Below, piece by piece: positions 474 through 33,611 of a stretch of DNA of 33,905 nucleotides. Source of the stretch: a virus. Below the pieces are notes generated by a model, which ran no database searches, was not told where the DNA came from, and saw only the letters and a list, made by a program, of their open reading frames with translations. A program made the translations under genes and the position numbers. Position 1 is the first letter of the stretch, and every line of letters starts with the position of its first letter. The stretch is from positions 2,413 to 36,317 of IMG/VR virus record IMGVR_UViG_3300030419_003402. One strand, written 5' to 3'.

Positions 474-603
474 CCGGAAATCTCTAGTAAATAGAGTGTA
501 GAATTGGATAAAAATGATGGAAAATTGTGTTCCCGGAGACGTTCAAGAGGAATTACTCCGCGAAATAAGTAACGATAAGTTAACTCCGTCCCGGAAATCT
601 CTA
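474..603 (+). repeat. 13-bp direct repeat CCGGAAATCTCTA (474-486 and 591-603)
   Basis: The same 13 bases occur just before the 61-aa gene (474-486) and inside it (591-603), 117 bp apart. The first copy runs into a small perfect hairpin (CTCTA 482-486, loop GTAAA, TAGAG 492-496). The second sits in the loop between CTCCGT (584-589) and ACGGAG (608-613). Function unknown; it could be a short duplication or an RNA-level element. Confidence 0.45.
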
Positions 604-699
604 AAAAACGGAGAATTATTCGAATCGGATGATGATTTACCTTCCGTTGAGGATTTCACTGAGAACAACAAGGAAGCTCAACCATTATTTGAGTTTTAA
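514..699 (+). CDS. 61-aa acidic protein with LPSVEDF peptide
   Basis: I do not recognise this as a family of known function. The start is ATG at 514 or the adjacent ATG at 517; GGAT precedes them but no strong Shine-Dalgarno is present. The second half is acidic (FESDDDLPSVEDF) and the protein ends PLFEF. Residues 42-48, LPSVEDF, match the repeated LPS[IVL][ED]x[FYV] peptide at the N-terminus of the coiled-coil protein encoded at 30928-32691. It is the first gene after the terminator, and a late-promoter-like element follows its stop, ahead of gp25. A short tail or baseplate docking protein is conceivable, but that is inference. Confidence 0.65.
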   Translation: MMENCVPGDVQEELLREISNDKLTPSRKSLKNGELFESDDDLPSVEDFTENNKEAQPLFEF

Positions 700-3050: not shown

Positions 3051-6000
3051 ATGGCAGTCGATAGAGTTCAATTTCAGGATGTTGTTGCTAGCCAACTTCC
3101 TAGATTTGTTAGAGAGGATTTTCCTCTTCTTCCTGACTTTTTGGAGCAATACTATTCTTCCCAAGAATATCAAGGGGGATCATTTGATTTACTTCAAAAT
3201 ATTGACCAATATGTAAAAGTTGATCAATTGTGTAATTTAACAAATTCCACAATTCTTCATACTGCTCTTGATTATAATGAGAGGACTGTACAGACATCAT
3301 CGCCTGGACAGACAGGTATTACAACAACTGTTGCAGCTAATAATACAGTAGAAGTTAATGAGACATTATATGTTGTTAATGATGGAAACTATACTGATGG
3401 ATTTCCTGAGACTAATGGTTTAATTAAAATTAATGATGAGATCATTAAGTATGAAACTAAGGATTCTGAGAAGTTTTATAATTGTACGAGGGGATTTAGT
3501 GGAATTACTTCTTACATAAGTCCAAATACAAATGATGAATTGGTATTTGATGTCACCGTACCCAATGAGCATCCTGCTGGATCTGTAATATACAATTTAA
3601 ATATTATTTTCTTACAGGAATTCTTTAAAAATTTAAAGTCTCAAGTTGCTCCTGGATTTACTGACAGAACTTTATATACTGGATTAGATAAAAAGAACTT
3701 TATTTTTAATTCTAACAGTTTTTATAATTCAAAAGGAACTGACTCTTCCTTTAAGATTCTATTCAATAGTTTATATGGAAAGGATGTTGATATTATCCGT
3801 CCTAGTGAATTATTACTTAGACCTTCTGATGCTGACTATAAAGTAACTAAAGATTTTGTAGTAGAAACAGTTAGTGGAGATCCAGGGAAGTTAAAGAATC
3901 TAACTCTCTTCCAAAGAGCTACTGGAGCTAAAGGTGCTGTTTCCAATATAAGAAAAATTGATTCTATTCCTGCTACAGGAGCTGGTAGTACTACTGTTGC
4001 TTATAAACAAGAGGTAGTTCCAGGAACATATTATCAAATCAGTCTAGATGATCATAAGTATAATGATGCAACTAGTTCAACTAAAGATTTTAAGCCTAAT
4101 CCTAAAACAAAACTTTTAACTAAAGTTTCTTTGGGTTCTACTATTATAGATGTTGATTCTACTGTAGGATTTCCCACAACAGGATTCTTGGCTGTAAGGG
4201 ATGTCAATAATGATTTAATTTCAATTGCTTATACTGGTAAAAGTATCAACCAGTTTTTTAATATTAGTGGAATAACCTCTTTAACAGAACTGTCTGCTAA
4301 AGAAGATATTAGTTTAGATAGTTATTCTTATGCTTATGTTGGAATTAATACTTCAGAAGAAATTAGAGTTAGAGTTAATGCTACTTTAAAAGATTTTGAG
4401 TTAGATAAAGAAGCTTATTATTATAATTCTGGTGATACTATTAATATTAAATCATTAGGTGTTGAATCTAGTGTTGAACCTTCTAGACATTGGACTTTTA
4501 ATACTCAAACAGAATGGAATGTTTTAAGTATTGAAGAAGTTGATTTAAGTGAGAATGTTTATAAGGTTAATGTATTTGATAACCAATTCTTAGATAAGGG
4601 ATATCAGGTTAATATTTCTATTAATGATGTCATCAAAGGAAAGGGTAGAGTTGTTGGTATTAACTCTCTCAGAAGTTTTGATGTTAAATTAGAAACTAAT
4701 ATTGATACTAGTGCAGATGGTTATATCGTAGAAAATCAATTATTGAAAGGAAAGTCTAATCTTTATACTAAAGTTAATAGTTATGTTGCTAATGTACAAA
4801 ATTCATATGCAACATTTGATGGAGATGTTTTAGTAGCTTCTAATTCACTTCCACATTATAATAATTTACCTACTGATCCTTATAATAAGACTGCTTATTT
4901 TAATGGTACTCCTGGTGGTTCTTCTAGTGAGACTATTACTTTAACTCATTATTCTGAAAGGGGATCTGCTAGTCCTAGTTTAGATCATGGATTCTTTACT
5001 GGAGATGCTGTTTATTATGAAGCAGAAGGTGAATGGACTGTTCCTTTTGGATCAGTTGACCCAGTACGTAGTATAAAGAGTCAACTTAACACTAGTATTG
5101 GAAAATTAACTGAGAGTGTTTACTATATCTACAGAGTTAATTCAACACAAGTTAAACTAGCTAGAAGTAGAGCAGATATTTTTGCTGCTAAGTTTATTCT
5201 TCTTTCTGGAGATGTTACTGATAGTAAGTTTACTTATTATGATTACTATCAGAAAACTTTTGAACCCCAGTCAATTTATAGACATGTAACTTCTCCATCT
5301 AAGAAAGGAGGGAATTTTGTTACTGAACCTGGTTATACAGCTATATTGAATAATGGTGTAGAACTACTTAACTACAAATCTTCTGATGTCATTTATTATG
5401 GTGATTTAAAATCAGCTGAGGTTACTAAGGGTGGTATTAATTATGATGTTATAAATCCTCCTAATTTCCATCTCTTTGACTCGGTAGGGTCAGGAGCTAC
5501 TGGTATTACCGCAGTTAAGGGTCAATTAGAAAGAATTGATATTCTTGATCAAGGTTTTGATTATGTTGGAACACCTACTATTGAAATTAAAGGTGGTAAT
5601 GGAAGTGGTGCTGTAGCTGAAGCTAATATGTCACTGGTTATTCATGAACCAGCCTTTAATGCAGAAGGAACTATAGGAGTTGGTGCTACTAATCCTGATA
5701 TAATTTTAGGTAAAGAAACTATAGGTTTTGGTACTTATCATAAATTCAAAAATGCAGAATCTGTAATTTATGATTCACAAGGAGAAACTGGTGTAGGTGG
5801 CCTTTCTACTTTTTCTACTTATTATGTTGAAGTAGTAGATAATTATACTATTAAATTGCATACTAGTGTTGCTAATGCAAGAGTAGGAATTGATACAGTT
5901 AATTTAACATCATATGGAACTGGAACTCAAAGATTTAGATCATCAGAAAGAAAGAGAATTGTTTCTGGAATTGTTGTAAAGAGTTCTGGATCTGGTTATC

Positions 6001-9000
6001 AGAATAAGCAAAAAACTATTCCTACTTCTGGAATTAATACTGCTACTAATGTTATTTCTATTACTAATCATGGATATGAAAGTGGAGAAATAGTCCAGTA
6101 TACTTCTGGTGGAAGTGCTGTTGGGGGATTGTCTGAAAGTTCTAATTATTATGTTAGAAAGGTTGATGATAATTCATTCTCTTTAAGTCTTGTAGGAGGA
6201 ACTAATCAAGAGAAATATTATTATGATAATAATGTTGTTGTAAATTTAACTACTACTGGAGATGGTTCCTTTAATTATGAACCAATTACAGTTTCAGTTA
6301 AAGGTACAGTTGGAATTGCTACTACTGTAGGAACTGCTCAAGATTTTAATTGTAAAGTTCAACCCATCTTTAGAGGTGAAATTGATTCTGTTGATATTAC
6401 TACAGGTGGTGTTGGTTATGGTGCTTCTGAGATTCTTAATTTCAATAGACAACCAGATATTACTTTTAAGAGTGGAGAGAATGCTCAATTAGAGCCTATT
6501 ATCAGTAATGGTAAAATAGTCAGTATTAATATTAGATCTGGTGGTAGTTCATATAATTCCCCTCCTGATTTAACTATAAAAGGACCTACTGGAAAGTATG
6601 CAAGACTTACACCACAAATTGAAAATGGTGTAATTGTTGATGTTAAAATTATTAGTGGTGGAGTAGGGTTTACTACAGATAAAACCACCATTGAAGTTAA
6701 GGCAGCTGGTGAAAATGCTATTGTAGAAGTTACTCCTAAAGAGTGGAATATTAATAACTTTGAAAAGTATTATAATGCAGGTGCTTCTGCTGGTTTGATT
6801 AAAGAGGATGATGGATTCTTAACTAGAAACATTGGAAATACTTCTCTAGAATATGGAGCCCTTTATGCCCCTAGAGCATTAAGGAAAGCTTCTTATATGG
6901 TCTCTGCTAACTGGGATGAATTGATCTTCCCTAAGGTTCATTATGGAGTTCCTGATTTAAACATACAAAGTGGAAGAGAAGTCTTTAGTGGATCACAGTA
7001 TCACTCACCAATTCTAGGATGGGCTTATGATGGCCATCCAATTTATGGTACTTATGGGTATAAGGGAATTGAGGGTGGAGTTGTTGAACAAATGACTTCT
7101 GGATATAGTCTGGTTTCTGCAGGATCTACTTTTGCTCAAGAAAGACCACCTCTATCTACTTTCCCTAATGGATTCTTTGTTGAAGATTATCTTTATACTG
7201 GTAATGGTACTCTAGATGAACATAATGGTAGATTCTGTGTTACTCCAGAATATCCCAATGGAACCTATGCTTACTTTATAACTCTAAGTGAAAATAATGA
7301 AAGTAGTGGTCCATTTGATGGAGTTAAGAGACCAACTTTCCCATATGTAATTGGTAATAGTTTTGCCTCCCAACCCAATGACTTTAACTTTAAGTCTATT
7401 TCTAATCAGACAGATTATGATATAGAAGGTAAAGGTTGGTTTAGAAATACTGCCAATTATAATATTGGAGACGCTAAGAGTGGATATAAGTTTATCTTCA
7501 ATTCTAATGAGATTCAAAAACAGTCTCTTGATATTACAGCGTCTTCAGTAGGTAATGTACAATCTGTTGGTATATTTACTGGAGGAACTGATTATCGTTA
7601 TAAGGATACAGTAGACTTTAATAATGAGGGGACTAGTGGTACTGATGCTGGTGCTAGAGTTGAAAGACTGGCTGGAAAAGAAATTAGTGTTGTAAGTTCT
7701 TCTACTACTTCTTTTGAATTTGTTGAATATGCCTCAGGTAGAAGTGTAAATGAATTTATTGGATTTACTTCCTCTCCTCATAATTTCTTAAATAATCAAA
7801 TCTTTAATATTAGTGGTTTCTCATCTTATTTTGATGGATTTGATGGAAATTATAAGGTAGGTGTAAGGTCAGATAGTTTTGCTCTTAATAGTGGAATTGG
7901 AAGTGTTGGAACAACTGGTATTGTAACTTATTTTGGTGTTAGTGGTATTTTAGAATATCCTTCCCTCAGAACTAATGATATTTTAGGAATTGGAACTGAA
8001 AAACTTAAAGTTCTTAATATTGATAAGAAGCAACAAAGAATTCGTGTTCTTAGAGAACAAGAAGGAACAGTAGGTTCTGGTTGGTCTGCAACTGCTTATG
8101 TTACTGGAACTCCTTTATTTGAAGATCCTAAGAAATTTACTGTAAATGTTGGTACTGTTAAAACTACCAAGACTTTAAGGATTAATTCGGAACATTATTT
8201 CTATCCTGCTGAATCTGTTGGTGTAGGAACTACTAACAGTTATAATGGGGTTGGTCTTGGAAATACTTTAGTATTCTCAAATCCAGGAACTGGTGCTACA
8301 AATATATTTGTTAAACCACAACATGTTTATATACCTGATCATGGATTAAAATTAAATGATAAACTTTATTACTTCCCCAATGGTGGTGGAACTGCTCCTT
8401 TAGTTTGGAATGGCAAAACTCCTGTAGGTACAGGAACTACTAGTCTCAATCTTCTTGCAGATTACTTCTATGCTGCACCATTAGGAAAAGACTTTATTGG
8501 TATTTCTAGTAATAAAGTTGGTATAGGAACTACTAATGTTGAAGGAACATCTAATCCTACTGGAGCCCCTGGTTATGTGGGGGTAGGAACCACTGCAGGA
8601 CTGTTATACTTCATCGATAGTGGTTTAGGGTCCTATCACAGTTTTAAGACCTCTCTGGAGGACGTAGTAACCTCTCAGGTGGATCGAACTTTGGTTACAG
8701 TATCTACTGCATCCACTCATGGATTAGCCGCTAAGGATAAAGTTTGGGTGAGTGTTCTGCCTACTACTGCAGTTAGTGTAGATGTAAGATATAATGATCA
8801 CAATAGGAGAATGATATTTAATCCTGTCTCCTTCACAGCATCTGATGTAGATACTCAATATAATACTATTACCTTTACTGGACATGATTTCAGAAAGGGT
8901 GAAAAGGTTATTCATACAGCGGCCACTTCTTCTGGTGGATTGTCTGATGAATCCATGTATTATGTGGTTCCTTATAGTAAAGATAAGGTTAGGTTAGTAT

Positions 9001-12000
9001 CTGATAAATTCCAAGTAACTGATGCTAATCCTGCATTTATTAATATTACTAGTGCATCAGCTGGAACTTTATCCAAGATCAATCCTTTATTAGAAGTTAA
9101 TAATAACAATGTTGTAACTTTTGATCTTTCTGATTCTTCTTTATCATTCTTTAGTAGTGGAGATCAGTATTCTGCCTTTAGTTTAGGTTTATATCGTGAT
9201 AATGAATTCTCTACTCCTTTCTATACTACAGCTAAGCCATGGATTTCTGGTACTCCAGTAGGATTTGCAGTTACTTTCTCTGGTGAAGTAGGATTTGTTG
9301 GAGCTGCTTTAACCGTTCAAGTAAGTAATGAAACTCCTGTTAATTTGTGGTACAAATTTGATGTAGATACTGTTGATAAAATTACTGCAATTAAGAAACA
9401 ATTAATAATTGATAAGGATCAAGATTCCTGGAACCAAATCAATTTAGTCAAAACCGCTTATGATGGAGAATATGAAATTAGTGGGGTGGGAGCTACAACC
9501 TTCCAGTATACTGTTAATCAGATTCCTGACACTTCTAGTTTTAATTCTGATACTTCTAAATCCACTTATGAAACCAATTCAGCTACTGCTTATGGTTCTA
9601 TAGCTCAGATTAAGATGTTAGATGGTGGCTTTGGATATAAGAGTCTACCAGGAATAACTTCAGTAGTTAGTGGACTAGGAACAGGTGCTATCTTATTTGC
9701 TGAAAGTAAGAATATTGGTCAGATCATAGATCAAAGATTTAATGCTAATGGAATAGGTTGGGATTATCCTACAGATGAAACTTTAAGACCAATTGCTAAC
9801 CTTCCTGAAATTCTTAAAATACAATCATTAATGCGTTTTGAGAGTATTGGAATTTCTTCTGTTGGTATAGGCTATTTTACAGCTCCTGACTTGGTGGTAA
9901 TTGATGGATATAGTAAGAAGCAGGTAACTGATGTTGATTTAGAATATACTTTGGGTGATGAGGATGTCACTATTCTGAAGAATAGTACATCCATGTATAA
10001 TAGCAGACCTACTATTCTTCCTGTTAATAACAGCAATGGAGTTGGAATTTCTTCTGTTGAATGGGATTCTGCTAACTTAGTAGTTAAACTTTATCTAGAT
10101 GCTACCTTCAGTGAAGCTGCTGATTTCCATTATGCTGTTGGTGAAACCGTTTTGGTTGAAAATATTAGTTCTGGTGTAGGAAGTACTGGTTTAGGATATA
10201 ATTCTGAAAACTATAATTGGACATTATTCCCACTCACCGCTGTTGATGGTAAGATTGGAGGAAGTGGAGCTTATGTTTCATATAGTCTAGATGGTTATGT
10301 TTCAGTTGGTTCTACACCTGGTGTAGTAGATTTGGCTAATTCTTATGGAAGAGTAGTTCCATCAAAAGATTTCCCTATATTTGATCCTGTTCTTAAGACT
10401 ACTGATTTCTTAATAGGAGAAGATGTAGTTACAAATAATGAAACTCCTTATCTTATTAGATCTCAACTCTATGGGGCAGCTGGTCCTGGTAAAGGAGTAG
10501 TTGAAAGTTGGAATCCAAATACTAATAGACTTAAGGCTTCTATTGATAGAGATCTAAGTATAGGTGATAAGATCAGGGGTGTTCTTTCTAATACTCAGGG
10601 TATAGTTGAAAGTAAGATAGATTTCAACGCAGACATTAAAACAGGAGCTGGTGCTACTGTTATAGGGGGATGGCAGAGAACTACTGGATTCCTCAATAAT
10701 GATCAACAGCGACTTCCTAATAATGAGTACTATCAAAACTTCTCTTATTCTTTGAAATCAGAAGTTTCTAAAGATGTTTGGGATGATCCTGTAAGTATAC
10801 TTAATCATACTGCTGGATTTGATAAGTATTCTGATTTACAAATTATTAGTGTTCCTACTAATTCAGCTGAAGTGGGAATTGGAACTACTAATAGTGTAGA
10901 GATTGTTACTGATATTGTTGGAAAAGGGAGCCTTCAGTGTTTCTATGATTTTGATTATGTAACTGAAGGAGTAATTGAAATTAATAAAGCATTCCTTTCT
11001 AATGAGATTTCTTTTGAGAATAAGATTCTCACAGATTATTATCAATCTATTGGAAACCGTGTATTAAGTATTGATGACTTTAGTGGCACCTTCAATAGTA
11101 ATGAGGGTAGTTCTCAGTCTAGTTCTTTTGCTAGTTTCAATAGCAATGATATTTTCAATAAGTCAGTAGTTTTAGTTAAAGACATAACTTATACAGATGA
11201 AAGACAATTTGGAATTGTTTCTGTTCTTCAACATAATGGAATAGGTTATGTGAACCAATATGGTGGTCAATGTACTGTAGATGTTACTGGCCCTCATTCT
11301 GATGTGGTCTATGATGAATTAGGTACTTTTGATTATCTGAAAACTGGTACTGGTTGGGATTTAACCTTTAACCCAATCAAGTTTGAATACAATGAGTATG
11401 AATTATCAGCACTGACTATTAGTGTTGTTAATGATAGTACTACAACTGGTATTCAAACTTTAGGTGATGTATCTCAAGTAAGTAACGTTACTGTTGATAT
11501 TGGTGCTGGTACTACAACCACTATAGCCACTATTTCTACAGCTTGGAGAGCTCATAGTTTTATTATTAATCTGGAAGATACTAGTCAGAACTTCCATGGC
11601 TCTCAGTTAAATCTTATTCATGATGGTACTAGTGTTTATGCATCTGAGTATGGATCTTTGACTAATAGTACTGGTGCTATGAGTACTGGATTTGGTACTT
11701 TCTCTGCTTCTATTAGTGGAAGTAATGTTGTATTACAATTCATTCCAAGTGTATCTGTTGCTTTAACTTGTAAGTATTCACTTGTTTCTGTTGCTAATAC
11801 AGCTTCCACCTCAACTGGTTCTACTGTATTGAGTTGTGGAAGAGTTTCATCAGCATATACTTCTATTTCCAGTTCTGGATCTCCTTCAGCAGTTGGGATA
11901 ACTTCTTACACCGCTGTTGGAACAGCAGCTACTTCTGGAGGATATTACTTACTCTCTATTGAAGACACAACTAATAACAATTATTCATTGGCTGAAGTTT

Positions 12001-15000
12001 GTGTACTGAATAGCGCTTTAAATGAATCTTGGATTGAGTTTGGTAATGTAGATACTGGTGCTGGTATTGGTACTGTAGGTATTCAGTCTACTGGCAATTA
12101 TATTGAACTTATGTACACTCCCATAGCGAGTGCTGATGTTCAAGTTAGAATGTTTAAGATGGAGGCTCGTCCATTTAATGGAAATAGTGACTCTACAGAA
12201 ATAGATTTGAATCTCAGTGATATTACTAGTAAGAATGGTTACTACAATGGAACTAAAGTTAGTGTAAAATCTGACTTCCCATTACAACATCAAGCTTTAG
12301 ATATCTTTAGAAGAGTATTTGATGGATCTAATGCAGCTGTTGCTAATACAGCTACTAATTTAGTGGAGATGGGTGATCACTTCTTTGTTACTGGTGAAAA
12401 AGTAAAATATAGTTATTTGAATAGTGATTCTGACGCAGCTGGTTCAACAACTAATGCAATTAGTATAGCATCCACCAATGTTAGTGGTATTGGTGTAACA
12501 GATAAACTTCCTACTACACTTTATTGTGTGAAAGTTGGAGCAGGTTCATTAAGGTTTACTGATACAGCTACCAAAGCTTTACAGAAGACTCCTAACACCT
12601 TTGAAATTAGTTCTGTAGGTATTGGAACTTCTCATGTTATTGCTAGCATCAATCCTAATGGAAGGGCATTGATGGCTATTGATAATATGATTCAGGCTCC
12701 TATCTCTGGTACTGCAATTACCACTGGATTAAGTACTGGTATTGTTTATCAACAGAAAATACCTGTTACTGGATTTACTTCTATCTTCTCATCAGATATT
12801 GTTCAGGTTGATGATGAATTGATGAAGGTTATCCATGTTGGATATGCTGGTAGTAGTCAGATTACAGTTCTAAGAGGACAATTAGGGACTACAATGGGTG
12901 TCCACACTGTGGGTGCTGCTGTCACTAAGATGAGTGGTAATTATAATATTGTAGATAATAGAGTTTACTTTGCTTCTGCTCCTTATGGTCAAGTTCCTTT
13001 AAGTACAACTACTGGTGATCCAGATTCAAGAGATTGGGCTGGTATCACTACTCATTCTTCCTTCCAGGGAAGAGTCTTTATGAGAAGAGCTGAAACTGAC
13101 ACCACAGATCCAGCTTACGCTAGTAACTACATCTTTGATGATCTTTCTAATCAGTTTACAGGAATTACTAGTGATTTTATTCTTAAATCTGATAAACAGA
13201 ATGTTACTGGATTCTCTACTTTCAATGGTATTGTTTTAATCAACAATATTTTCCAACAACCTCTTGGAGTTCAGGCTGAGGCTTCAGCTTATACAATGGA
13301 AGAAGATGTTGGCATTACTACTATTAATTTCAATGTAGGAACAGGTAATACCATAGCTGAGGGATATGATCCTAATAAGAGTAGTTATCCTATGGGTGGG
13401 GTAATTATTTCCGTTGGTTCTAGTGAAGGATTTGGATATCAACCATTAATAAGTGCTGGAGGAACTGCTCAAGTATCTACAGCTGGTACTATTTCTTCTG
13501 TTTCTATTGGAAATACTGGAGCTGGATATAGAAAGGGTGTTCAAGTACCTAATGTTGGTATTCAAACTTATAGTTCTGGAATAGCCACTATTACTAATAT
13601 TGGAACAGCTACTGTTCAAGATGGTAGAGTGGTGAGTGTTAACATCACCAATCCCAAGGTCTTCTATAAGCCAAGAGATATTCAAAATGTTGGTTATAGT
13701 TCTATATCCGGATTGACCACTGTTTCTACATTATTACCTCATGGTTTAACTAATGGGGATAGAGTTCTTCTATCAGGAATAGCTTGGACTTGTAGTTATT
13801 CTCCTCCATTGAGTATTAGTACTGTTGGTTATACTTCTACAACAGGTATAATGACTGTTACTACCTCAGGAACTCATGGTTTGGCTGTAGGTAAAGAAGT
13901 TATTCTTACTGGACTTGGAATGACTTGTGATATTGACTCAGGAGTCGGTTTACATTTCTATCCAAGAGGAAAAGATTTTGCATATGATAACGCAGTTGGT
14001 ATAGCATCTACTACTAGTACTACTATAGTTTTAGATGTTGGACATGCTGGAAAAGCTGATCAATATACACATACATTTGTAAGTGCAGCCACTAGTGCTA
14101 TTATTTCTGGTGGTGACTATACTCACCAATTCGTAGATGCATTAAGTGGAGCAGTTATTAGTGGTGGTGATTATAATCATCAGTTTGTAAGTGCTGGTGT
14201 TGGAAGTATTAGTGTAGGTGGATGGGGTGCATCTGGTGTTGGTACTACTACTGCTACTTACGCTACTTATGATGGATCAACAGGTCATTTAGTTCTAACA
14301 GTCGCAGGACATGGTTTAGATGTTGGAACTGAAGTTGGTATAGACACAGGTTCTATAGGATTTACTTGTGAAATGGATGATTATGGTTCTACCAAGTATT
14401 ATCCTCGTGCTACTGATCCTATTTCAGGATATGGTACAACTACTATTATAGGAACTACTGAAAATACCTTCACAGTTAATGTGGGTCTGAGTACCATTGT
14501 CAATTATGATGTTACTAACGCCACTTATGATGGATCTACTGGACTCTTAGTACTTACCATCGGCGCTCATAATTTCTTCATGACTAAAGATAGTGTGAAG
14601 TTAAAGAATGATAGTTTGAACTTTAGATGTTCAATGGATAACTATAATTCATTACACAGTTATCCTAGATCTACTGATCCATATTACAACACCGCTGTTG
14701 GTATTGCTTCTACATCTTCTACTACTATTACTTTAAATGTTGGTATATCTACTTTAGTTTATTATACTCCTACTGGAGCTGATTATAATCCAGTAGTTGG
14801 TATTATGACAGTTACCATTGGTTCTCATAATCTCTTTACTGGAAGAAACATTAAGATAGCTGAAAGTGGTTTAACCTTTACTTGTAGTAAAGATAGTAAC
14901 GCTACTCAGCATTCTTATCCTAGAAAACCTGATCCTTATTATGGTGGAGTAGCTATTAGTAGTATTCCTGCTACTAATCAACTGGTGGTTAATGTTGGTG

Positions 15001-17084
15001 TTTCTACTGTAGGTACTTACTATAGTACTGGTGGAACAGTCCAGGGAGCTATCATTGCTCCTAGAGCAACTGACCCAGCTTCACAAGGTACAGAAGTTCT
15101 TAGAATTATTGATAATAAGACTTTTGAAGTTAATACAGGTACTACAACTTGTGATCACTTCTACGCAAGAGGGGGACTTCTTGGAAAACCAACAAAGGTT
15201 GTTATTGATGAACCATTAAGTTATGAAAATATTCCTTTGGTGTATAGTTCTGATTCTGCTACCGGAGTTGGACAAAGTGCTACTGTAGACATAGTAGTTG
15301 GCCAAGGTTCCAGTGTTATTAGCTTTAGTCTTGATCAGACTGGGGTTGGTTATGGTGTTTCTGAAATTCTTACTGTTCCTGTTGGTGGTGAAACAGGAAT
15401 TCCAACTAACACTAGTTTAACTTTCCAAGAATTCCAGCTTAACATTGATGAAATTCATGATGACAATTTCAATGGTTGGTCAGTTGGTGAATTGGAAGTT
15501 CTGGATAGAATAGATTCTAAGTTTGATGGATATACTAAGGCATTTGGAATTACTCTTAGTGAAAATCCTGTTTCTATTCAGGCAGCTAAAGGATCTCAAA
15601 TTGATGTCCAAATGGTCTTGTTAGTCTTTATTAATGATATCTTACAAGAACCTGGCGCAGCTTATATCTTCAATGGTGGTAGTACTATTACATTTACTAC
15701 AGCACCTAAGGCTGGAGATTCCTCTAAGATTCTCTTCTATAAGGGATCAGGATCTATTGATGTTGTCTTTACTGATGTTTTAGAAACAGTGAAGGTTGGT
15801 GATACTTTAGATATTGATAATGTACCTGAACAAGGTCAAAACTGGAGTCTCAATGAAGATCCTAGGACTGTAACTGGTATCAACACTATGGATAGTGTAA
15901 ATACTAATATCTATCCTGGTCCTGGTGTTACTACAGACGGTACTCTGAAGAGGACTGTAGACTGGTGTAAGCAAGAGTATGACATCACAATCAATGGAGC
16001 TGATGTAGGAAAAGATAGGATTCATTATGAACCTGCTATCTACCCAGCAGCTTATATGATTAGTTCAGCTGGTGTTGGAACTACTGTCATTTATGTTAAT
16101 ACTTTAAGACCTCTCTTTAACGCTAATGATGAAGCTACAATAAGAACTTTCCAAGATTCTATTGTAATTGAATCTCAAGATGTTATTACAGCAGCTGCAG
16201 CTACAGCAACTGTTTCAGTGGCAGGTACAGTTTCTGCTATTACAGTGGGTACAGCTGGAGCTGGTTACACAGTGGCTCCAAATGTCACTATTGGTAATGC
16301 ATCTGGAGTTGGAACTAATTCACCAGTTGGTGTGGCAACAACAACTAGAGCTACTGCAACAGCTACCTTAAGTGCAGGTACTGTGAGTGCCATTACAGTT
16401 TCTTATGGTGGTACAACTACTGGAGTTGCTTATACTACCTCTAGTCCTCCACCAGTTCTTATAGATCCTCCTAAGATTACTAGGGAGACTCTAGATGTTA
16501 TTACTACTACGGGCTATAAAGGAGATTATGGTAGTGTTGTTGGATTTGGAACTACTGTAAGTGGAGGAGGTCAAAATAGACTTTATTTTGATCTTTGGAT
16601 TCCTTTGAATTCCTATATGAGAGATACTGAATATGTTGGATCAGCTGTTACTATATCTGGTATTAGTACAGGTGATTTCCTCACTGTTTTCAATTCTAAT
16701 GTTAATTCAGGATTGAGTACTTTCGCTACTCAGAATACCAGTGGTACTGGTGTGGGAATTGGTACTTCATGTGTAGATGGGGTTTACCAAGTCTTTAGCG
16801 CAGAAACAAGAGAACTTCCATCAACAGTTCTTGGATTCACTACTCATCTCAGAAGAATATTCTGTAATGTTGATAATGTTGGAACTGGAATAGCTTACAC
16901 AACTCAATACAATAACAATGACAAGTATCTTGCTGATCTTGGTGAATTTAGTTGGGGTAAGATTTTGATCAATGGCGTAACTCAAAAAGCCTTCAATTTC
17001 TATGGAGATAATGGAGTTACTGGCATTAGTACATCTGCTTTAGTGACCAGAGCTAAATCTCTCAAATATAAAGATTATACCTAA
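3051..17084 (+). CDS. giant modular baseplate wedge protein in the gp7 slot (4677 aa)
   Basis: This one gene fills about 40% of the window and lies exactly where T4 has gene 7, between gp6 and gp8. T4 gp7 has 1032 aa; this has 4677. The N-terminus (MAVDRVQFQDVVASQLPRFV, then FPLLPDFLEQYY, and IRPSELLLRPSDADY near residue 255) is typical of the marine T4-like gp7-position protein. The rest is mainly beta modules: GxGY repeats (for example nt 6381-6735), HG..GD.V.Y....GL....YYV units, a degenerate YHYH domain near residues 1304-1434, 'DE.M.V...RG..GT' modules (near nt 12795) and tandem 86-codon and 18-codon units (nt 14064-15035). The C-terminus (FGTTVSGGGQNRLYFDLWIP onward) is non-repetitive. 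It probably nucleates the wedge and projects outward as a host-contacting decoration; the second role is inference. No frameshift interrupts it. Confidence 0.88.
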   Translation: MAVDRVQFQDVVASQLPRFVREDFPLLPDFLEQYYSSQEYQGGSFDLLQNIDQYVKVDQLCNLTNSTILHTALDYNERTVQTSSPGQTGITTTVAANNTVEVNETLYVVNDGNYTDGFPETNGLIKINDEIIKYETKDSEKFYNCTRGFSGITSYISPNTNDELVFDVTVPNEHPAGSVIYNLNIIFLQEFFKNLKSQVAPGFTDRTLYTGLDKKNFIFNSNSFYNSKGTDSSFKILFNSLYGKDVDIIRPSELLLRPSDADYKVTKDFVVETVSGDPGKLKNLTLFQRATGAKGAVSNIRKIDSIPATGAGSTTVAYKQEVVPGTYYQISLDDHKYNDATSSTKDFKPNPKTKLLTKVSLGSTIIDVDSTVGFPTTGFLAVRDVNNDLISIAYTGKSINQFFNISGITSLTELSAKEDISLDSYSYAYVGINTSEEIRVRVNATLKDFELDKEAYYYNSGDTINIKSLGVESSVEPSRHWTFNTQTEWNVLSIEEVDLSENVYKVNVFDNQFLDKGYQVNISINDVIKGKGRVVGINSLRSFDVKLETNIDTSADGYIVENQLLKGKSNLYTKVNSYVANVQNSYATFDGDVLVASNSLPHYNNLPTDPYNKTAYFNGTPGGSSSETITLTHYSERGSASPSLDHGFFTGDAVYYEAEGEWTVPFGSVDPVRSIKSQLNTSIGKLTESVYYIYRVNSTQVKLARSRADIFAAKFILLSGDVTDSKFTYYDYYQKTFEPQSIYRHVTSPSKKGGNFVTEPGYTAILNNGVELLNYKSSDVIYYGDLKSAEVTKGGINYDVINPPNFHLFDSVGSGATGITAVKGQLERIDILDQGFDYVGTPTIEIKGGNGSGAVAEANMSLVIHEPAFNAEGTIGVGATNPDIILGKETIGFGTYHKFKNAESVIYDSQGETGVGGLSTFSTYYVEVVDNYTIKLHTSVANARVGIDTVNLTSYGTGTQRFRSSERKRIVSGIVVKSSGSGYQNKQKTIPTSGINTATNVISITNHGYESGEIVQYTSGGSAVGGLSESSNYYVRKVDDNSFSLSLVGGTNQEKYYYDNNVVVNLTTTGDGSFNYEPITVSVKGTVGIATTVGTAQDFNCKVQPIFRGEIDSVDITTGGVGYGASEILNFNRQPDITFKSGENAQLEPIISNGKIVSINIRSGGSSYNSPPDLTIKGPTGKYARLTPQIENGVIVDVKIISGGVGFTTDKTTIEVKAAGENAIVEVTPKEWNINNFEKYYNAGASAGLIKEDDGFLTRNIGNTSLEYGALYAPRALRKASYMVSANWDELIFPKVHYGVPDLNIQSGREVFSGSQYHSPILGWAYDGHPIYGTYGYKGIEGGVVEQMTSGYSLVSAGSTFAQERPPLSTFPNGFFVEDYLYTGNGTLDEHNGRFCVTPEYPNGTYAYFITLSENNESSGPFDGVKRPTFPYVIGNSFASQPNDFNFKSISNQTDYDIEGKGWFRNTANYNIGDAKSGYKFIFNSNEIQKQSLDITASSVGNVQSVGIFTGGTDYRYKDTVDFNNEGTSGTDAGARVERLAGKEISVVSSSTTSFEFVEYASGRSVNEFIGFTSSPHNFLNNQIFNISGFSSYFDGFDGNYKVGVRSDSFALNSGIGSVGTTGIVTYFGVSGILEYPSLRTNDILGIGTEKLKVLNIDKKQQRIRVLREQEGTVGSGWSATAYVTGTPLFEDPKKFTVNVGTVKTTKTLRINSEHYFYPAESVGVGTTNSYNGVGLGNTLVFSNPGTGATNIFVKPQHVYIPDHGLKLNDKLYYFPNGGGTAPLVWNGKTPVGTGTTSLNLLADYFYAAPLGKDFIGISSNKVGIGTTNVEGTSNPTGAPGYVGVGTTAGLLYFIDSGLGSYHSFKTSLEDVVTSQVDRTLVTVSTASTHGLAAKDKVWVSVLPTTAVSVDVRYNDHNRRMIFNPVSFTASDVDTQYNTITFTGHDFRKGEKVIHTAATSSGGLSDESMYYVVPYSKDKVRLVSDKFQVTDANPAFINITSASAGTLSKINPLLEVNNNNVVTFDLSDSSLSFFSSGDQYSAFSLGLYRDNEFSTPFYTTAKPWISGTPVGFAVTFSGEVGFVGAALTVQVSNETPVNLWYKFDVDTVDKITAIKKQLIIDKDQDSWNQINLVKTAYDGEYEISGVGATTFQYTVNQIPDTSSFNSDTSKSTYETNSATAYGSIAQIKMLDGGFGYKSLPGITSVVSGLGTGAILFAESKNIGQIIDQRFNANGIGWDYPTDETLRPIANLPEILKIQSLMRFESIGISSVGIGYFTAPDLVVIDGYSKKQVTDVDLEYTLGDEDVTILKNSTSMYNSRPTILPVNNSNGVGISSVEWDSANLVVKLYLDATFSEAADFHYAVGETVLVENISSGVGSTGLGYNSENYNWTLFPLTAVDGKIGGSGAYVSYSLDGYVSVGSTPGVVDLANSYGRVVPSKDFPIFDPVLKTTDFLIGEDVVTNNETPYLIRSQLYGAAGPGKGVVESWNPNTNRLKASIDRDLSIGDKIRGVLSNTQGIVESKIDFNADIKTGAGATVIGGWQRTTGFLNNDQQRLPNNEYYQNFSYSLKSEVSKDVWDDPVSILNHTAGFDKYSDLQIISVPTNSAEVGIGTTNSVEIVTDIVGKGSLQCFYDFDYVTEGVIEINKAFLSNEISFENKILTDYYQSIGNRVLSIDDFSGTFNSNEGSSQSSSFASFNSNDIFNKSVVLVKDITYTDERQFGIVSVLQHNGIGYVNQYGGQCTVDVTGPHSDVVYDELGTFDYLKTGTGWDLTFNPIKFEYNEYELSALTISVVNDSTTTGIQTLGDVSQVSNVTVDIGAGTTTTIATISTAWRAHSFIINLEDTSQNFHGSQLNLIHDGTSVYASEYGSLTNSTGAMSTGFGTFSASISGSNVVLQFIPSVSVALTCKYSLVSVANTASTSTGSTVLSCGRVSSAYTSISSSGSPSAVGITSYTAVGTAATSGGYYLLSIEDTTNNNYSLAEVCVLNSALNESWIEFGNVDTGAGIGTVGIQSTGNYIELMYTPIASADVQVRMFKMEARPFNGNSDSTEIDLNLSDITSKNGYYNGTKVSVKSDFPLQHQALDIFRRVFDGSNAAVANTATNLVEMGDHFFVTGEKVKYSYLNSDSDAAGSTTNAISIASTNVSGIGVTDKLPTTLYCVKVGAGSLRFTDTATKALQKTPNTFEISSVGIGTSHVIASINPNGRALMAIDNMIQAPISGTAITTGLSTGIVYQQKIPVTGFTSIFSSDIVQVDDELMKVIHVGYAGSSQITVLRGQLGTTMGVHTVGAAVTKMSGNYNIVDNRVYFASAPYGQVPLSTTTGDPDSRDWAGITTHSSFQGRVFMRRAETDTTDPAYASNYIFDDLSNQFTGITSDFILKSDKQNVTGFSTFNGIVLINNIFQQPLGVQAEASAYTMEEDVGITTINFNVGTGNTIAEGYDPNKSSYPMGGVIISVGSSEGFGYQPLISAGGTAQVSTAGTISSVSIGNTGAGYRKGVQVPNVGIQTYSSGIATITNIGTATVQDGRVVSVNITNPKVFYKPRDIQNVGYSSISGLTTVSTLLPHGLTNGDRVLLSGIAWTCSYSPPLSISTVGYTSTTGIMTVTTSGTHGLAVGKEVILTGLGMTCDIDSGVGLHFYPRGKDFAYDNAVGIASTTSTTIVLDVGHAGKADQYTHTFVSAATSAIISGGDYTHQFVDALSGAVISGGDYNHQFVSAGVGSISVGGWGASGVGTTTATYATYDGSTGHLVLTVAGHGLDVGTEVGIDTGSIGFTCEMDDYGSTKYYPRATDPISGYGTTTIIGTTENTFTVNVGLSTIVNYDVTNATYDGSTGLLVLTIGAHNFFMTKDSVKLKNDSLNFRCSMDNYNSLHSYPRSTDPYYNTAVGIASTSSTTITLNVGISTLVYYTPTGADYNPVVGIMTVTIGSHNLFTGRNIKIAESGLTFTCSKDSNATQHSYPRKPDPYYGGVAISSIPATNQLVVNVGVSTVGTYYSTGGTVQGAIIAPRATDPASQGTEVLRIIDNKTFEVNTGTTTCDHFYARGGLLGKPTKVVIDEPLSYENIPLVYSSDSATGVGQSATVDIVVGQGSSVISFSLDQTGVGYGVSEILTVPVGGETGIPTNTSLTFQEFQLNIDEIHDDNFNGWSVGELEVLDRIDSKFDGYTKAFGITLSENPVSIQAAKGSQIDVQMVLLVFINDILQEPGAAYIFNGGSTITFTTAPKAGDSSKILFYKGSGSIDVVFTDVLETVKVGDTLDIDNVPEQGQNWSLNEDPRTVTGINTMDSVNTNIYPGPGVTTDGTLKRTVDWCKQEYDITINGADVGKDRIHYEPAIYPAAYMISSAGVGTTVIYVNTLRPLFNANDEATIRTFQDSIVIESQDVITAAAATATVSVAGTVSAITVGTAGAGYTVAPNVTIGNASGVGTNSPVGVATTTRATATATLSAGTVSAITVSYGGTTTGVAYTTSSPPPVLIDPPKITRETLDVITTTGYKGDYGSVVGFGTTVSGGGQNRLYFDLWIPLNSYMRDTEYVGSAVTISGISTGDFLTVFNSNVNSGLSTFATQNTSGTGVGIGTSCVDGVYQVFSAETRELPSTVLGFTTHLRRIFCNVDNVGTGIAYTTQYNNNDKYLADLGEFSWGKILINGVTQKAFNFYGDNGVTGISTSALVTRAKSLKYKDYT
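6378..6735 (+). repeat. three GxGY-type beta modules in the gp7-slot protein
   Basis: Three related units of about 40 codons begin near 6381, 6516 and 6633. Each has an 'I.SV.I..GG.GY' strand-turn and then a Pro- or Asp-containing strand (DSVDITTGGVGYG; VSINIRSGGSSYNSPPDLTI; VDVKIISGGVGF). Single copies of the same pattern occur at about 5530, 5958, 7559, 9603, 9838, 13397, 13470, 15316 and 16231 in this gene. The same module is present in gp8, the 2606-aa protein and gp14. Confidence 0.7.
6960..7350 (+). other. embedded degenerate YHYH domain
   Basis: About 130 residues (roughly 1304-1434) of the gp7-slot protein match the YHYH domain family. GWAYDGHPIYGTYG (W at residue 1324) is followed by LDEHNGR (1388-1394) and PNGTYAYF (1402-1409), then a Phe-Pro-Tyr segment. 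In the family signature the last block reads YHYH; here both His positions are replaced (Tyr-Ala-Tyr-Phe). Beta-rich modules flank it on both sides, so it looks like an inserted domain. Confidence 0.75.
14064..14225 (+). repeat. three tandem 18-codon units (HxFV...ISGGDY)
   Basis: Three consecutive 54-bp units start at 14064, 14118 and 14172 inside the gp7-slot gene. They encode YTHTFVSAATSAIISGGD, YTHQFVDALSGAVISGGD and the more diverged YNHQFVSAGVGSISVGGW. Unit length is exact, while synonymous and non-synonymous changes have accumulated, so the duplication is old or under selection as protein. Confidence 0.85.
14262..15035 (+). repeat. three tandem 86-codon units (FTC..D...YPR.TDP)
   Basis: Units of exactly 258 bp start at 14262, 14520 and 14778. 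Each encodes A.Y....G...lTi..Hn, then (F)TC..D, YPR..DP and a closing NVG.ST strand. Units 1 and 2 share the 14-base string ACTTATGATGGATC at the same offset (14265 and 14523). Diverged relatives precede them (about 13690-13820 and 13823-14043) and a truncated one follows (about 15036-15180, with APRATDP). The module is, to my knowledge, common in marine phage structural proteins. Confidence 0.85.
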
Positions 17085-26696: not shown

Positions 26697-27119
26697 ATGG
26701 CCAATAACACTATTACTTTTGATCCAGAAGATGGAGTGGCATATCCTGCTAATCTGACTTTGAACACAGGAGCGGATTTTAATTCCAGTTTTCATATTTT
26801 AAAAAATGATAAGACTAATTTTGATTTTTCAGTAGATAATGCTGTAGGTATTGCTACAACTACTGGATGGACTGGTTCTTGTCAGATGACTAAATCTGTT
26901 TCTGTTGGATCTACTGCTTATCCAGCAGCTACTTTTACTGTAGGGTTTACTAGTGCAGCTGGTGGTAAATTTAGTATATCTCTAGGTTCTACACAGACTA
27001 GACTTTTGAGTGGTGGAAGATATTGGTATGACATTTTAGTGAGTTCTGGTGCTACCTTTTATAGAATTGTAGAGGGAAATATACTGGTGGTATCTGGAGT
27101 ATCTTCAGTTCCTTCTTGA
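26697..27119 (+). CDS. small beta-sandwich-like structural protein (140 aa)
   Basis: I do not recognise a named family with certainty. The protein starts 3 bases after the previous stop. It is strand-rich and resembles the N-terminal, Ig-like domains of small phage baseplate proteins: MANNTITFDPEDGVAYPANL, a central CQMTKS strand, and a late 'GRYWYDILVSSG...RIVEGNILVV' hairpin (about residues 107-132). That ending (RY.YD......RIVEG...V) is common in small tail-associated proteins of marine T4-like phages. There is no signal peptide or membrane segment. Co-linear position between the large virion gene and gp13 supports a structural role. Confidence 0.75.
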   Translation: MANNTITFDPEDGVAYPANLTLNTGADFNSSFHILKNDKTNFDFSVDNAVGIATTTGWTGSCQMTKSVSVGSTAYPAATFTVGFTSAAGGKFSISLGSTQTRLLSGGRYWYDILVSSGATFYRIVEGNILVVSGVSSVPS

Positions 27120-30454: not shown

Positions 30455-30886
30455 ATGACTACTAAGTATGAAAAATTGGATGAAACTTTTAATATTACTC
30501 CTACTGAAGTAACAGTAGATGAAAGTGATGTGGAAGTTGGAGTGGAAAGAAAAAAACCAGATAGACTTACTAAAAGTGATATTGATAGAGACTATGAATA
30601 TACTCGGGGTCAACTATATTCAATAATAGAAAAAGGACAAGAGGCAATTAATGGTATTCTTGAGGTAGCTCAAGAAAGTGATATGCCTAGAGCATATGAA
30701 GTTGCAGGACAACTCATTAAGAGTGTTTCTGATGCAACTGATAAGTTAATGACTCTTCAACAAAAATTGAAAGATGTTAATAAAGAGGAAGAATCTAAAG
30801 GACCAACCACTGTTAACAATGCATTGTTTGTAGGTTCAACAGCTGATTTACAGAAATTGTTGAAAGAACAGACTAGGACTAAATAG
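30455..30886 (+). CDS. gp16: terminase small subunit gp16
   Basis: This is the T4 gp16 homologue, the small packaging subunit that recognises the DNA and stimulates the gp17 motor. It has 143 aa against 164 in T4. The conserved centre is DRDYEYTRGQLYSIIEKGQE followed by AINGILEVAQESDMPRAYEV and AGQLIKSVSDATDKLMTLQQ, a helical hairpin typical of the family. The C-terminus (TVNNALFVGSTADLQKLLKE) is also family-like. A good GAGG sits about 6 bases before the ATG and overlaps the gp15 stop. Unusually, gp17 is not the next gene: three genes and about 2.7 kb lie between the two terminase subunits. Confidence 0.93.
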   Translation: MTTKYEKLDETFNITPTEVTVDESDVEVGVERKKPDRLTKSDIDRDYEYTRGQLYSIIEKGQEAINGILEVAQESDMPRAYEVAGQLIKSVSDATDKLMTLQQKLKDVNKEEESKGPTTVNNALFVGSTADLQKLLKEQTRTK

Positions 30887-30927: not shown

Positions 30928-32691
30928 ATGTCATACGACAGCCTTGACAATCTGCCATCGATAGATGATTATAAAGTAGAGGAATTACCCTCCTTAGAGA
31001 GTGTATTGTCAGAACATCAATTACCTTCAGTTGAAGAGTTTAAAGAGAAGGAAGAGGAAGAACTCTTAACCGAAGAGGTAATAGAACCAGAACCAGAGAT
31101 AGAAGTAGAAAGTCAAGATTTGACTGAAGTTTTACATCTCATTAATGCTGTACGTAAAGATATACCTAAAATTCCAGAAATTAAATATTATGATGATCAA
31201 TTAGAAGAGTTAACTAATTCTATTGAATCACTAAAAGTATCTTTGAAGGAAGGTGTATCTCAAGTAAGAGAAGATATCCCTACAATCCCTGAAATTAGAT
31301 ATTATGATGAAGATGTAGAATATATTCAAAAAAGAATTGGTATCCTCAAAGAGGAAATATCTAATCTTCCTGAGGTAAAATATTACGAAAAAGATATTGA
31401 AGATTTAAAGGAAAATATTCAAGCTGTAAAGGATAGTATTCCTAAATTCCCCAAGTGGGTAAATGAAGTTAATGAGGTTCCTGATTTTTCATGGATTGGG
31501 AAGACTTTTAGCGTCATTGATGATGATTTTATAAAAGTTCAAGATCACTTAAATCTCATTAAAGAAAGGATTACTACTGAAGTTAAAGATATTACAGAAA
31601 CTATAGATGTTAAAGATTTTGAGACTAAGGTTGATGTCAAAAATTTAACTGAGAGTCTTTCAGAAACTAAGAGTAACATTTATAAGGAATTAAAGGAATA
31701 TGCTCTAAGAATATGGGCACATCATAAAGAATTTAAAGATGATGATAGAAAGTTAAAGAAACAGATTAAAGGAGAATATAATCTCTTAAAAGAGAATATT
31801 GAGAAAAGAGTTGAGGATTTTAATACCAAAAATATAGAATCCCAAAACACCATTACTTCCGCTCTTACTGAATATTTTAATGAGGTAAAAGAAGAGATTG
31901 CTAATCTTCCTCAAGTCAAATATTATGATGATGATATTAAGAAGGTAAAAGAAGAGATTGTTCCTTTTAAGGATCAATTGAAAGAATTGAGAGAAATGGT
32001 TATTGATATTAAAGTTAAACAATATCAAGTTGAAGATGAGTTAAAAGAGGGACTGTTAAATAGTCCTCCTGAGGAAAACAATAAAGATCCTCTTACACCA
32101 TTAGATCAAAATTTTGTAACTCTCCAAGAATTACAAAGTCATTACAAACTTTTTGTCAATAGAGTTACAGAACAGTTAGCTACTTTTGGTGGTGGTGGAG
32201 CTGTAGAACTTCAGTACTTAGATGATATAACTGGTATTGCTACTAATGTGAGTGCTTATGATGGGATGTTCCTTACTGTGGATACTTCCCAAGGAAATGG
32301 TAAGAAGTTTAAGTTTACAACTGTATCTTCTGGAAGTACTACCTGGGCTAAGAATTCCACTGGTATTCATACTTTATCTAATGTAGGTATTGGTACAACT
32401 AATGCGGCTACTGCATTATATGTTACTGGAGATGCTACTGTTACTGGAGATCTTAATGTTTCAGGAGATATTGTTTATGATGAGGTTACAGGTAGAAACC
32501 TAAATATTTCTGGTATTGCTACTTTAGGTAGTGGTTCTGGTGGAACTACATCTGGAGTAGTTATAGTTGGAGCCGGTGCAGGAGCAGGAGCTACTATGGG
32601 TGGTCAGGCTTCTGGAATTGTTACCTATTATGGTGATGGATCCAATTTAACAGGAAAAGCATCTATTGGTCTTGCAATAGCATTAGGATGA
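30928..32691 (+). CDS. coiled-coil virion protein with beta C-terminus (587 aa)
   Basis: Likely a fibrous virion protein; I do not recognise a T4 counterpart. The N-terminus has three LPS peptides: LPSIDDY (9-15), LPSLESV (20-26) and LPSVEEF (32-38), followed by an acidic stretch. Residues 70-390 are Lys/Glu-rich and probably long coiled coils, punctuated by a repeated [IL]PE[IV][KR]YY[DE] motif (79, 117, 144 and 324; a diverged copy at 171). A GGGG hinge near residue 419 leads to a beta region with SNVGIGTTNAATALYVTGD, ISGIATL and YYGDGSNLTG, typical of cyanophage fibre or hairpin proteins. It could be a whisker/fibritin-like or neck-associated fibre, given its position after the neck genes and gp16; this is inference. 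The last four bases overlap the next start (ATGA). Confidence 0.82.
   Translation: MSYDSLDNLPSIDDYKVEELPSLESVLSEHQLPSVEEFKEKEEEELLTEEVIEPEPEIEVESQDLTEVLHLINAVRKDIPKIPEIKYYDDQLEELTNSIESLKVSLKEGVSQVREDIPTIPEIRYYDEDVEYIQKRIGILKEEISNLPEVKYYEKDIEDLKENIQAVKDSIPKFPKWVNEVNEVPDFSWIGKTFSVIDDDFIKVQDHLNLIKERITTEVKDITETIDVKDFETKVDVKNLTESLSETKSNIYKELKEYALRIWAHHKEFKDDDRKLKKQIKGEYNLLKENIEKRVEDFNTKNIESQNTITSALTEYFNEVKEEIANLPQVKYYDDDIKKVKEEIVPFKDQLKELREMVIDIKVKQYQVEDELKEGLLNSPPEENNKDPLTPLDQNFVTLQELQSHYKLFVNRVTEQLATFGGGGAVELQYLDDITGIATNVSAYDGMFLTVDTSQGNGKKFKFTTVSSGSTTWAKNSTGIHTLSNVGIGTTNAATALYVTGDATVTGDLNVSGDIVYDEVTGRNLNISGIATLGSGSGGTTSGVVIVGAGAGAGATMGGQASGIVTYYGDGSNLTGKASIGLAIALG
31162..31929 (+). repeat. IPEIKYYD repeat motif in the coiled-coil protein
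   Basis: The motif occurs as IPKIPEIKYYD (31162), IPTIPEIRYYD (31276), ISNLPEVKYYE (31357), IPKFPKWVNE (31438, diverged) and IANLPQVKYYD (31897). Spacing is 38, 27 and 27 codons for the first four, then a long helical insertion before the last. Pro-containing turns should break the helix at these points. Confidence 0.8.
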
Positions 32692-33227
32692 TGTCAATTT
32701 TTAAAAAGTTTTTTAAAGAAGCTACACCTACCAATAATACCTCTGGGGTTGCTAATTGGAATCCACTTTTATTCCCCCAAGATGAAGATGATCTATCCCA
32801 GGATTATCAAACTCCATCAGAACCTGGTCAAGCTAAATGGAGATTTTCAACTATATGGCCAGTATTGAAATTAACTATGAAAGGTATAGATGACATGGTA
32901 GATGCTTCAAACGAATACACAAATAAAATGGATGAATCACGGCAGGCGGTTTTAAGAAAGAATTTTTCTAAATTTATAGAAGAAGCTGCAGGAGTACAAA
33001 AAACATGTCCACAAGGACAATATTGGTGTTTCACTGATAAAAAATGTAAACCCATTCCTCGAGGATGGCATATAGGTTATGGAGGACGTCTTGAGCAAGA
33101 TGATGATTCTAAAAATGGTAAAAATGGCAACGGTAATGGGTCCCATAACGGGAATGGAAGTTCTAATGGCAATGGTGGCGGTAATGGGGGTGGCAATGGC
33201 AACGGCGGCGGTGGTAATGGTGGTTGA
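32688..33227 (+). CDS. Cys-motif protein with Asn/Gly-rich tail (179 aa)
   Basis: Unknown function. The ATG at 32688 overlaps the preceding stop as ATGA; the adjacent ATG at 32691 is an equally good start. The N-terminal half is soluble and partly helical (WPVLKLTMKGIDDMVDASNE). Residues about 105-126 form a compact block with three Cys and aromatic residues (CPQGQYWCFTDKKCKPIPRG), a pattern I believe recurs in marine T4-like phage virion proteins. The last 39 residues (141-179) are almost only Gly and Asn, with 12 Asn-Gly dipeptides, and look disordered. Codons there shift to more GGC and AAC than in the neighbours. A metal site or disulfide cluster is possible but unproven. Confidence 0.78.
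   Translation: MMSIFKKFFKEATPTNNTSGVANWNPLLFPQDEDDLSQDYQTPSEPGQAKWRFSTIWPVLKLTMKGIDDMVDASNEYTNKMDESRQAVLRKNFSKFIEEAAGVQKTCPQGQYWCFTDKKCKPIPRGWHIGYGGRLEQDDDSKNGKNGNGNGSHNGNGSSNGNGGGNGGGNGNGGGGNGG
33108..33224 (+). repeat. low-complexity Asn-Gly repeat coding region
   Basis: About 117 bp of imperfect AATGGC/AACGGC/GGTGGC units encode the Gly/Asn tail of the Cys-motif protein. G content is far above that of the surrounding AT-rich genes. The reverse strand gives a spurious Pro/Leu-rich frame. Confidence 0.85.
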
Positions 33228-33254: not shown

Positions 33255-33611
33255 ATGGATGCCTTAAGTAGATTTAGAAAGACCGTCAATCAGTATCAAC
33301 AAGATATGTTAACTGTTGAAGATTCTGATGGAAAAGTTGCGTATGAGATTGTTGATCTTATTAAACCAGACCCTTTGAAGGGGATGTCTGAAGCACATAG
33401 GGTTCCTGCTCAGTATGGTAATACTTGGAGGGTTATGTTGAGTTGGAGAGGAAAGTTGTTTATGATGAGAATTTTCTTCCCATTTACAACCAGACCTACT
33501 AGAAAACAAGTTAAAGATGCTATTGATAAAATATATCCAGAAGCAACTATAAGAGCATACTATATTGATAGGATGGATGGAAACGCATATGTGAATTCTG
33601 GGGGATCTTAA
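33255..33611 (+). CDS. conserved small protein before gp17 (118 aa)
   Basis: I do not know a function for this protein. It opens with a helical segment (MDALSRFRKTVNQYQQDML). The middle has a strong beta/aromatic block (TWRVMLSWRGKLFMMRIFFP, about residues 57-76) and then FTTRPTRKQVKDAIDKIYPE, a strand-helix arrangement I associate with small conserved proteins beside the terminase genes of marine T4-like phages. It is soluble, with no signal peptide. It follows a late promoter element and ends 6 bases before gp17, so it is likely co-expressed with the packaging motor. A packaging or head-assembly role is inference from position only. Confidence 0.8.
   Translation: MDALSRFRKTVNQYQQDMLTVEDSDGKVAYEIVDLIKPDPLKGMSEAHRVPAQYGNTWRVMLSWRGKLFMMRIFFPFTTRPTRKQVKDAIDKIYPEATIRAYYIDRMDGNAYVNSGGS

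Follow-up and report, generated by a model that had tools for sequence, protein, structure and literature searches.

A short linear motif shared by the N-terminus of a segmented fibre and a small protein encoded before gp25 in a marine T4-like phage

Gene context and the two motif carriers

The window analysed here is a stretch of 33,905 nucleotides that covers positions 2413-36317 of a 36.3-kb viral contig; the motif copies, the genes that carry them, gp25, gp16 and the 140-residue protein considered further below lie on its plus strand. It contains structural genes (gp25, gp6, those of large baseplate proteins, gp13, gp14, gp15 and gp16) of a marine phage of the T4-like kind. Most of them are closest to their P-TIM68 counterparts, but the fibre belongs to the type of SynMITS9220M01. 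A 61-residue protein, P0001 (514-699), is encoded directly before a gp25-type baseplate wedge subunit (734-1135; phrog_261, E 1.7e-51) and carries LPSVEDF at residues 42-48 (637-657). After the small terminase gene gp16 (30455-30886; phrog_445, E 2.2e-53), which forms the upstream flank of the fibre slot, and some 30 kb from P0001 lies the gene for a 587-residue protein (30928-32691) with three related peptides at its N-terminus: LPSIDDY (residues 9-15; 30952-30972), LPSLESV (residues 20-26; 30985-31005), which is without the final aromatic residue, and LPSVEEF (residues 32-38; 31021-31041). The first-pass annotation had reported these four peptides and their acidic setting; translation confirmed the peptides, and the description of the setting was correct. 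Beyond its N-terminus, the 587-residue protein has a shaft (31105-32187), in which long helices are separated by proline-containing PE[IV][KR]YY[DE] repeats and which ends in a conserved DPLTPLDQ...HYKLFVNRV...GGGG stretch, and a distal region (32188-32688) whose repeats also occur widely in tail-fibre and baseplate proteins of marine phages (phrog_1469, phrog_13163).

Elsewhere in the window, 3051-17084 encodes a gp7-type baseplate protein of 4677 residues that is 38-44% identical to its relatives and longer than its SynMITS9220M01 homologue, which is encoded by a 12.2-kb gene. P-TIM68 has an annotated fibre connector between gp7 and gp8 (NC_028955, 75788-78232); the window, SynMITS9220M01, S-SM2 and Bellamy have none at this position.

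Specificity and conservation of the motif

The number of strict motif matches expected in all other window proteins together is 3.5e-4 (2.6e-2 for a loose pattern), so that chance does not account for the motif; the refuting outcome named by the first-pass annotation, a frequency no higher than composition predicts, was not observed. A degenerate DNA pattern for LPS[VIM][DE][DE][FY] with TCN serine codons matched the window three times and none of 100 dinucleotide shuffles, and the strict motif appeared in 28 of 2,000,000 shuffles of P0001. When the 190-kb genome of SynMITS9220M01 was searched with a looser pattern, the motif was found in the fibre orthologue only, in three copies; neither this genome nor the fetched loci contained a further credible carrier. 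A DNA scan of viral contigs for ELPSVE[DE]F returned at least 120 stretches. Among the 120 matches listed, 110 belonged to the fibre family (109 by motif count plus the truncated L249), eight to P0001 orthologues, and two to one spurious reading frame present in two contigs, so that the two families account for 118 of the 120 matches listed. The scan was an exact DNA search restricted to TCN codons for serine and to valine as the fourth residue, and it sampled stretches as first encountered; these counts are therefore lower bounds. The unit common to both proteins is longer than seven residues and reads EELPSVE[DE]F[IV][DE]K. Judged from these sequence comparisons, the motif is a real, specific and conserved short linear motif.

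Uncultured viral contigs yielded 66 loci with homologues of the 587-residue protein, the weaker of which matched in the distal repeats alone. The one cultured phage to match along most of the protein and to share its N-terminus was Synechococcus phage SynMITS9220M01, and no meaningful homologues were found in PDB sequences or Pfam. N-termini that could be read from the start codon contained three, rarely two, units of approximately 10-15 residues each. Nearly every homologue begins with two or three tandem LPS[IV]x[DE][FY] units, including those from metagenomes, SynMITS9220M01 and AG-345-E15, and the window fibre does so with a degenerate middle copy. In 67 units, L, P and S were invariant, with I or V at position 4 in 57, D or E at position 6 in 61, and F, Y or W at position 7 in 63. 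The PE[IV][KR]YY repeats and conserved junction of this family are both present in the window fibre. In loci that show both sides, the window included, the fibre gene lies between gp16 and gp17, in the conserved order gp13-gp14-gp15-gp16-fibre-(CPxG protein)-gp17. We conclude that the 587-residue protein is a segmented coiled-coil fibre of the gp16-gp17 slot of marine T4-like phages. That it is part of the virion is suggested by homology and by how the slot proteins of other phages are annotated.

Other short modules were observed in these proteins. Proteins of the gp16-gp17 region, such as that encoded at 32688-33227 of the window, contain a cysteine module, C-x2-G-x-[YFW]-x-C ... C-K-P-I-P-x-G, which directly follows the LPS units in three fibres (L003, L216 and L281); it is another short module moving between proteins of this gene island. 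A TIEDxNGxxFxEVxDI module follows the LPS units at about residues 45-75 in fibres such as L007 and L008 (87 LPS-fibre sequences counted) and is absent from the window fibre; by eye, a stretch resembling it is present in the protein encoded at 33255-33611 of the window and in the slot fibre of Bellamy.

P0001 belongs to a family of short proteins encoded before gp25 that have an LREIxNDxxTP core, often ELFE, and mostly a C-terminal L-x-E-F. P0001 itself has the core, directly upstream of gp25. Searches by tblastn and with a single-sequence scan yielded no relatives; these were reached through gp25 synteny and with an alignment. The small hypothetical proteins before gp25 in SynMITS9220M01 (SynMITS9220M01_080), S-SM2 (SSM2_094) and Bellamy (108) share the position, an LREIxNDxxTPKK core and E[LI]F[ED], but are without LPSVEDF. 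Within the family, LPSV[ED][ED]F is restricted to the clade of the window (L075-L081, L172 and the window), and the motif region varies in length and sequence in the remaining members. Conservation in orthologues, whose absence the first-pass annotation had named as refuting, therefore extends to fibre homologues and to this clade, but not to the rest of the P0001 family. Synonymous variation affects five of the seven motif codons within the clade, and the motif residues change only between D and E. Pairwise codon comparison gave 38 synonymous and 12 nonsynonymous differences in the motif and 30 and 68, respectively, in the next 12 residues, counts that are inflated by relatedness among the seven sequences but still contrast clearly. 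This pattern indicates that the P0001 copy is under purifying selection. Many C-termini in the family (e.g., L122, L128 and L131) read [TS]LNEF or similar, and some members have an internal SLNEF or TLNEF copy, which suggests a second short motif in these proteins.

An LPS fibre occurs together with a motif-less P0001 homologue in SynMITS9220M01 and in G013, G027, G033, G035, G037, G040 and G046. Since such homologues are common in LPS-fibre phages, the P0001 copy is an optional addition, and since most phages with the LPS fibre have P0001 homologues without the motif, it is not required for fibre function. Apart from the window, none of the motif-bearing P0001-clade contigs searched reaches the fibre gene, so that the pairing is directly seen in the window only. 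The idea that the P0001 copy compensates for the degenerate middle fibre copy was not supported, because the phage of L005 has a middle copy LPSVEEV, yet its P0001 homologue (L321) is without the motif.

A proposed docking function and its alternatives

We propose that the unit, an acidic residue followed by L-P-S-[IV]-[DEN]-[DE]-[FY]-hydrophobic-[DE], acts as a short linear docking motif, and that the two or three tandem units per fibre chain would form a flexible, multivalent N-terminal anchor through which the coiled-coil fibre is fixed to either the virion or an assembly intermediate. Ser-x-x-[DE] is a helix-capping pattern, and the motif serine probably caps a short helix in which L1, [IV]4 and [FY]7 share the face that would enter a pocket; in the motif peptide EELPSVEDFIEK, L1, I/V4 and F7 would be the pocket-contacting residues. 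AlphaFold2 predicted a helix beginning directly after the motif serine in P0001 (residues 45-50) and at the three fibre copies, although the single-chain fibre model was of low confidence (mean pLDDT 50). The first-pass annotation had called the setting of the motif probably disordered, which holds for the fibre N-terminus (pLDDT mostly 33-58); in P0001, the motif is predicted with moderate confidence to be the start of a short helix (pLDDT approximately 73-75). In the clade of the window, the single copy in P0001 probably engages this pocket as well, either as a ligand that is co-assembled or as one that fills the site for a time while assembly proceeds. Position, repetition and exchangeability of the units point to multivalent docking by the fibre, and sequence identity by itself suggests that the P0001 copy binds the same site. 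The docking tag first suggested for both proteins thus has support in the case of the fibre and is plausible in that of the small protein. The joint reading, in which the fibre units form a multivalent docking anchor and P0001 probably engages the same pocket, seems to us about as apt to be right as wrong. We regard as quite doubtful the more specific proposal that, in this clade, P0001 is a decoy or plug that temporarily holds the fibre docking site and so orders fibre attachment during assembly. As a candidate docking partner, we considered a 140-residue protein encoded before gp13 (26697-27119), homologues of which are annotated "L-shaped tail fiber protein assembly". In a comparison of co-variation among neck and baseplate proteins, it was the one protein besides the fibre whose resemblance to SynMITS9220M01 clearly exceeded that to P-TIM68; in other LPS phages, this closer match was not consistent.

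The main competitor of the joint reading is that the P0001 peptide, whether of independent origin or a copy taken from the fibre gene, now serves a different purpose, with no common partner. LPSVE[DE]F would then be a well-capped, amphipathic helix start that suits acidic, flexible regions. Such an origin is consistent with the lack of the motif in P0001 orthologues elsewhere and with the movement of short modules between proteins of the gp16-gp17 region, exemplified by the cysteine module in three LPS fibres and their neighbours. However, EELPSVE[DE]F[IV][DE]K is practically exclusive to the two families among the viral-contig matches listed, and purifying selection on the P0001 motif also argues against this account, which we consider rather unlikely. 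At the other extreme, mere coincidence between two acidic proteins is scarcely credible: the low-complexity acidic setting and the selection of the similarity after the fact would favour it, but it is opposed by the very low expected number of matches, by conservation in orthologues and by the near-exclusivity of the motif to two families among the matches listed.

Two further possibilities concern what the motif binds. It might be recognised by an assembly factor or chaperone instead of a structural virion site, with P0001 as a competitor that times the release or attachment of the fibre. Fibre assembly commonly needs chaperones, and a small single-copy protein facing a multivalent ligand would fit a displaceable occupant, but the analysis turned up no candidate chaperone linked to the motif, and we judge this possibility improbable. 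A role of the units as sites for cleavage or targeting by the T4-type prohead protease gp21, or as a capsid targeting sequence, is more improbable by far. The acidic context, the presence of gp21 in this T4-like phage and an N-terminal position resembling that of capsid targeting sequences are compatible with it; yet the conserved L, P, S and aromatic residue are not demanded by the protease consensus, and gp21 cleavage was rejected because [IL]-x-E fits only 13 of 171 units.

If the unit is the anchor, it provides a sequence tag by which one class of fibres can be recognised across many uncultured T4-like phages of marine origin, and it shows how a fibre can be swapped when only a short peptide at its N-terminus is exchanged. 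Its copy in a second protein would offer a direct route to the docking partner.

Comparison with known fibres

The tail fibres annotated in the gp16-gp17 slot of Kyanoviridae (SSM2_107 of S-SM2, 121 of Bellamy and gp096 of P-TIM68) share with the LPS fibres both the slot and the GGGGEVRLEFLDD junction, but have another type of N-terminal peptide without LPS units, LGxFFSLIG-like in SSM2_107 and Bellamy 121 and LADFFNSIG-like in P-TIM68 gp096. Related shaft or junction proteins of S-CAM7, S-SKS1, S-B05 and two single-cell viruses have an N-terminal P[SG][DE][FY]F or TPSQFF peptide; the N-terminal form is [RK/N]P[SG][DE][FY]F in S-CAM7, S-SKS1 and AG-345-O18, and the proteins of S-CAM7, S-SKS1 and S-B05 are encoded in other genome regions. 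Because related fibres and shafts carry different N-terminal peptides, the LPS unit most likely functions as a multivalent anchor module, and such peptide exchange is what we would expect of an attachment segment. PHROG 28263, annotated "tail fiber protein", matches the window fibre (E 1.9e-37), with a best stretch that covers only fibre residues 93-182 and leaves the LPS N-terminus outside.

Attachment segments at the N-terminus are a known feature of phage fibres. In the literature searched, the string LPSVEDF occurred in no paper, and neither the tandem short motif nor its sharing with a second protein was found. The whisker protein fibritin (wac) of T4 is encoded before gene 13, whereas the window fibre occupies the 16-17 slot; neither fibritin nor its foldon matched the window fibre in Pfam or PDB sequences, and we know of no tandem LPS units in fibritin. 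The two are alike in that both genes lie among head-neck genes and in their architecture, in which a short attachment region at the N-terminus precedes a coiled-coil fibre built of segments.
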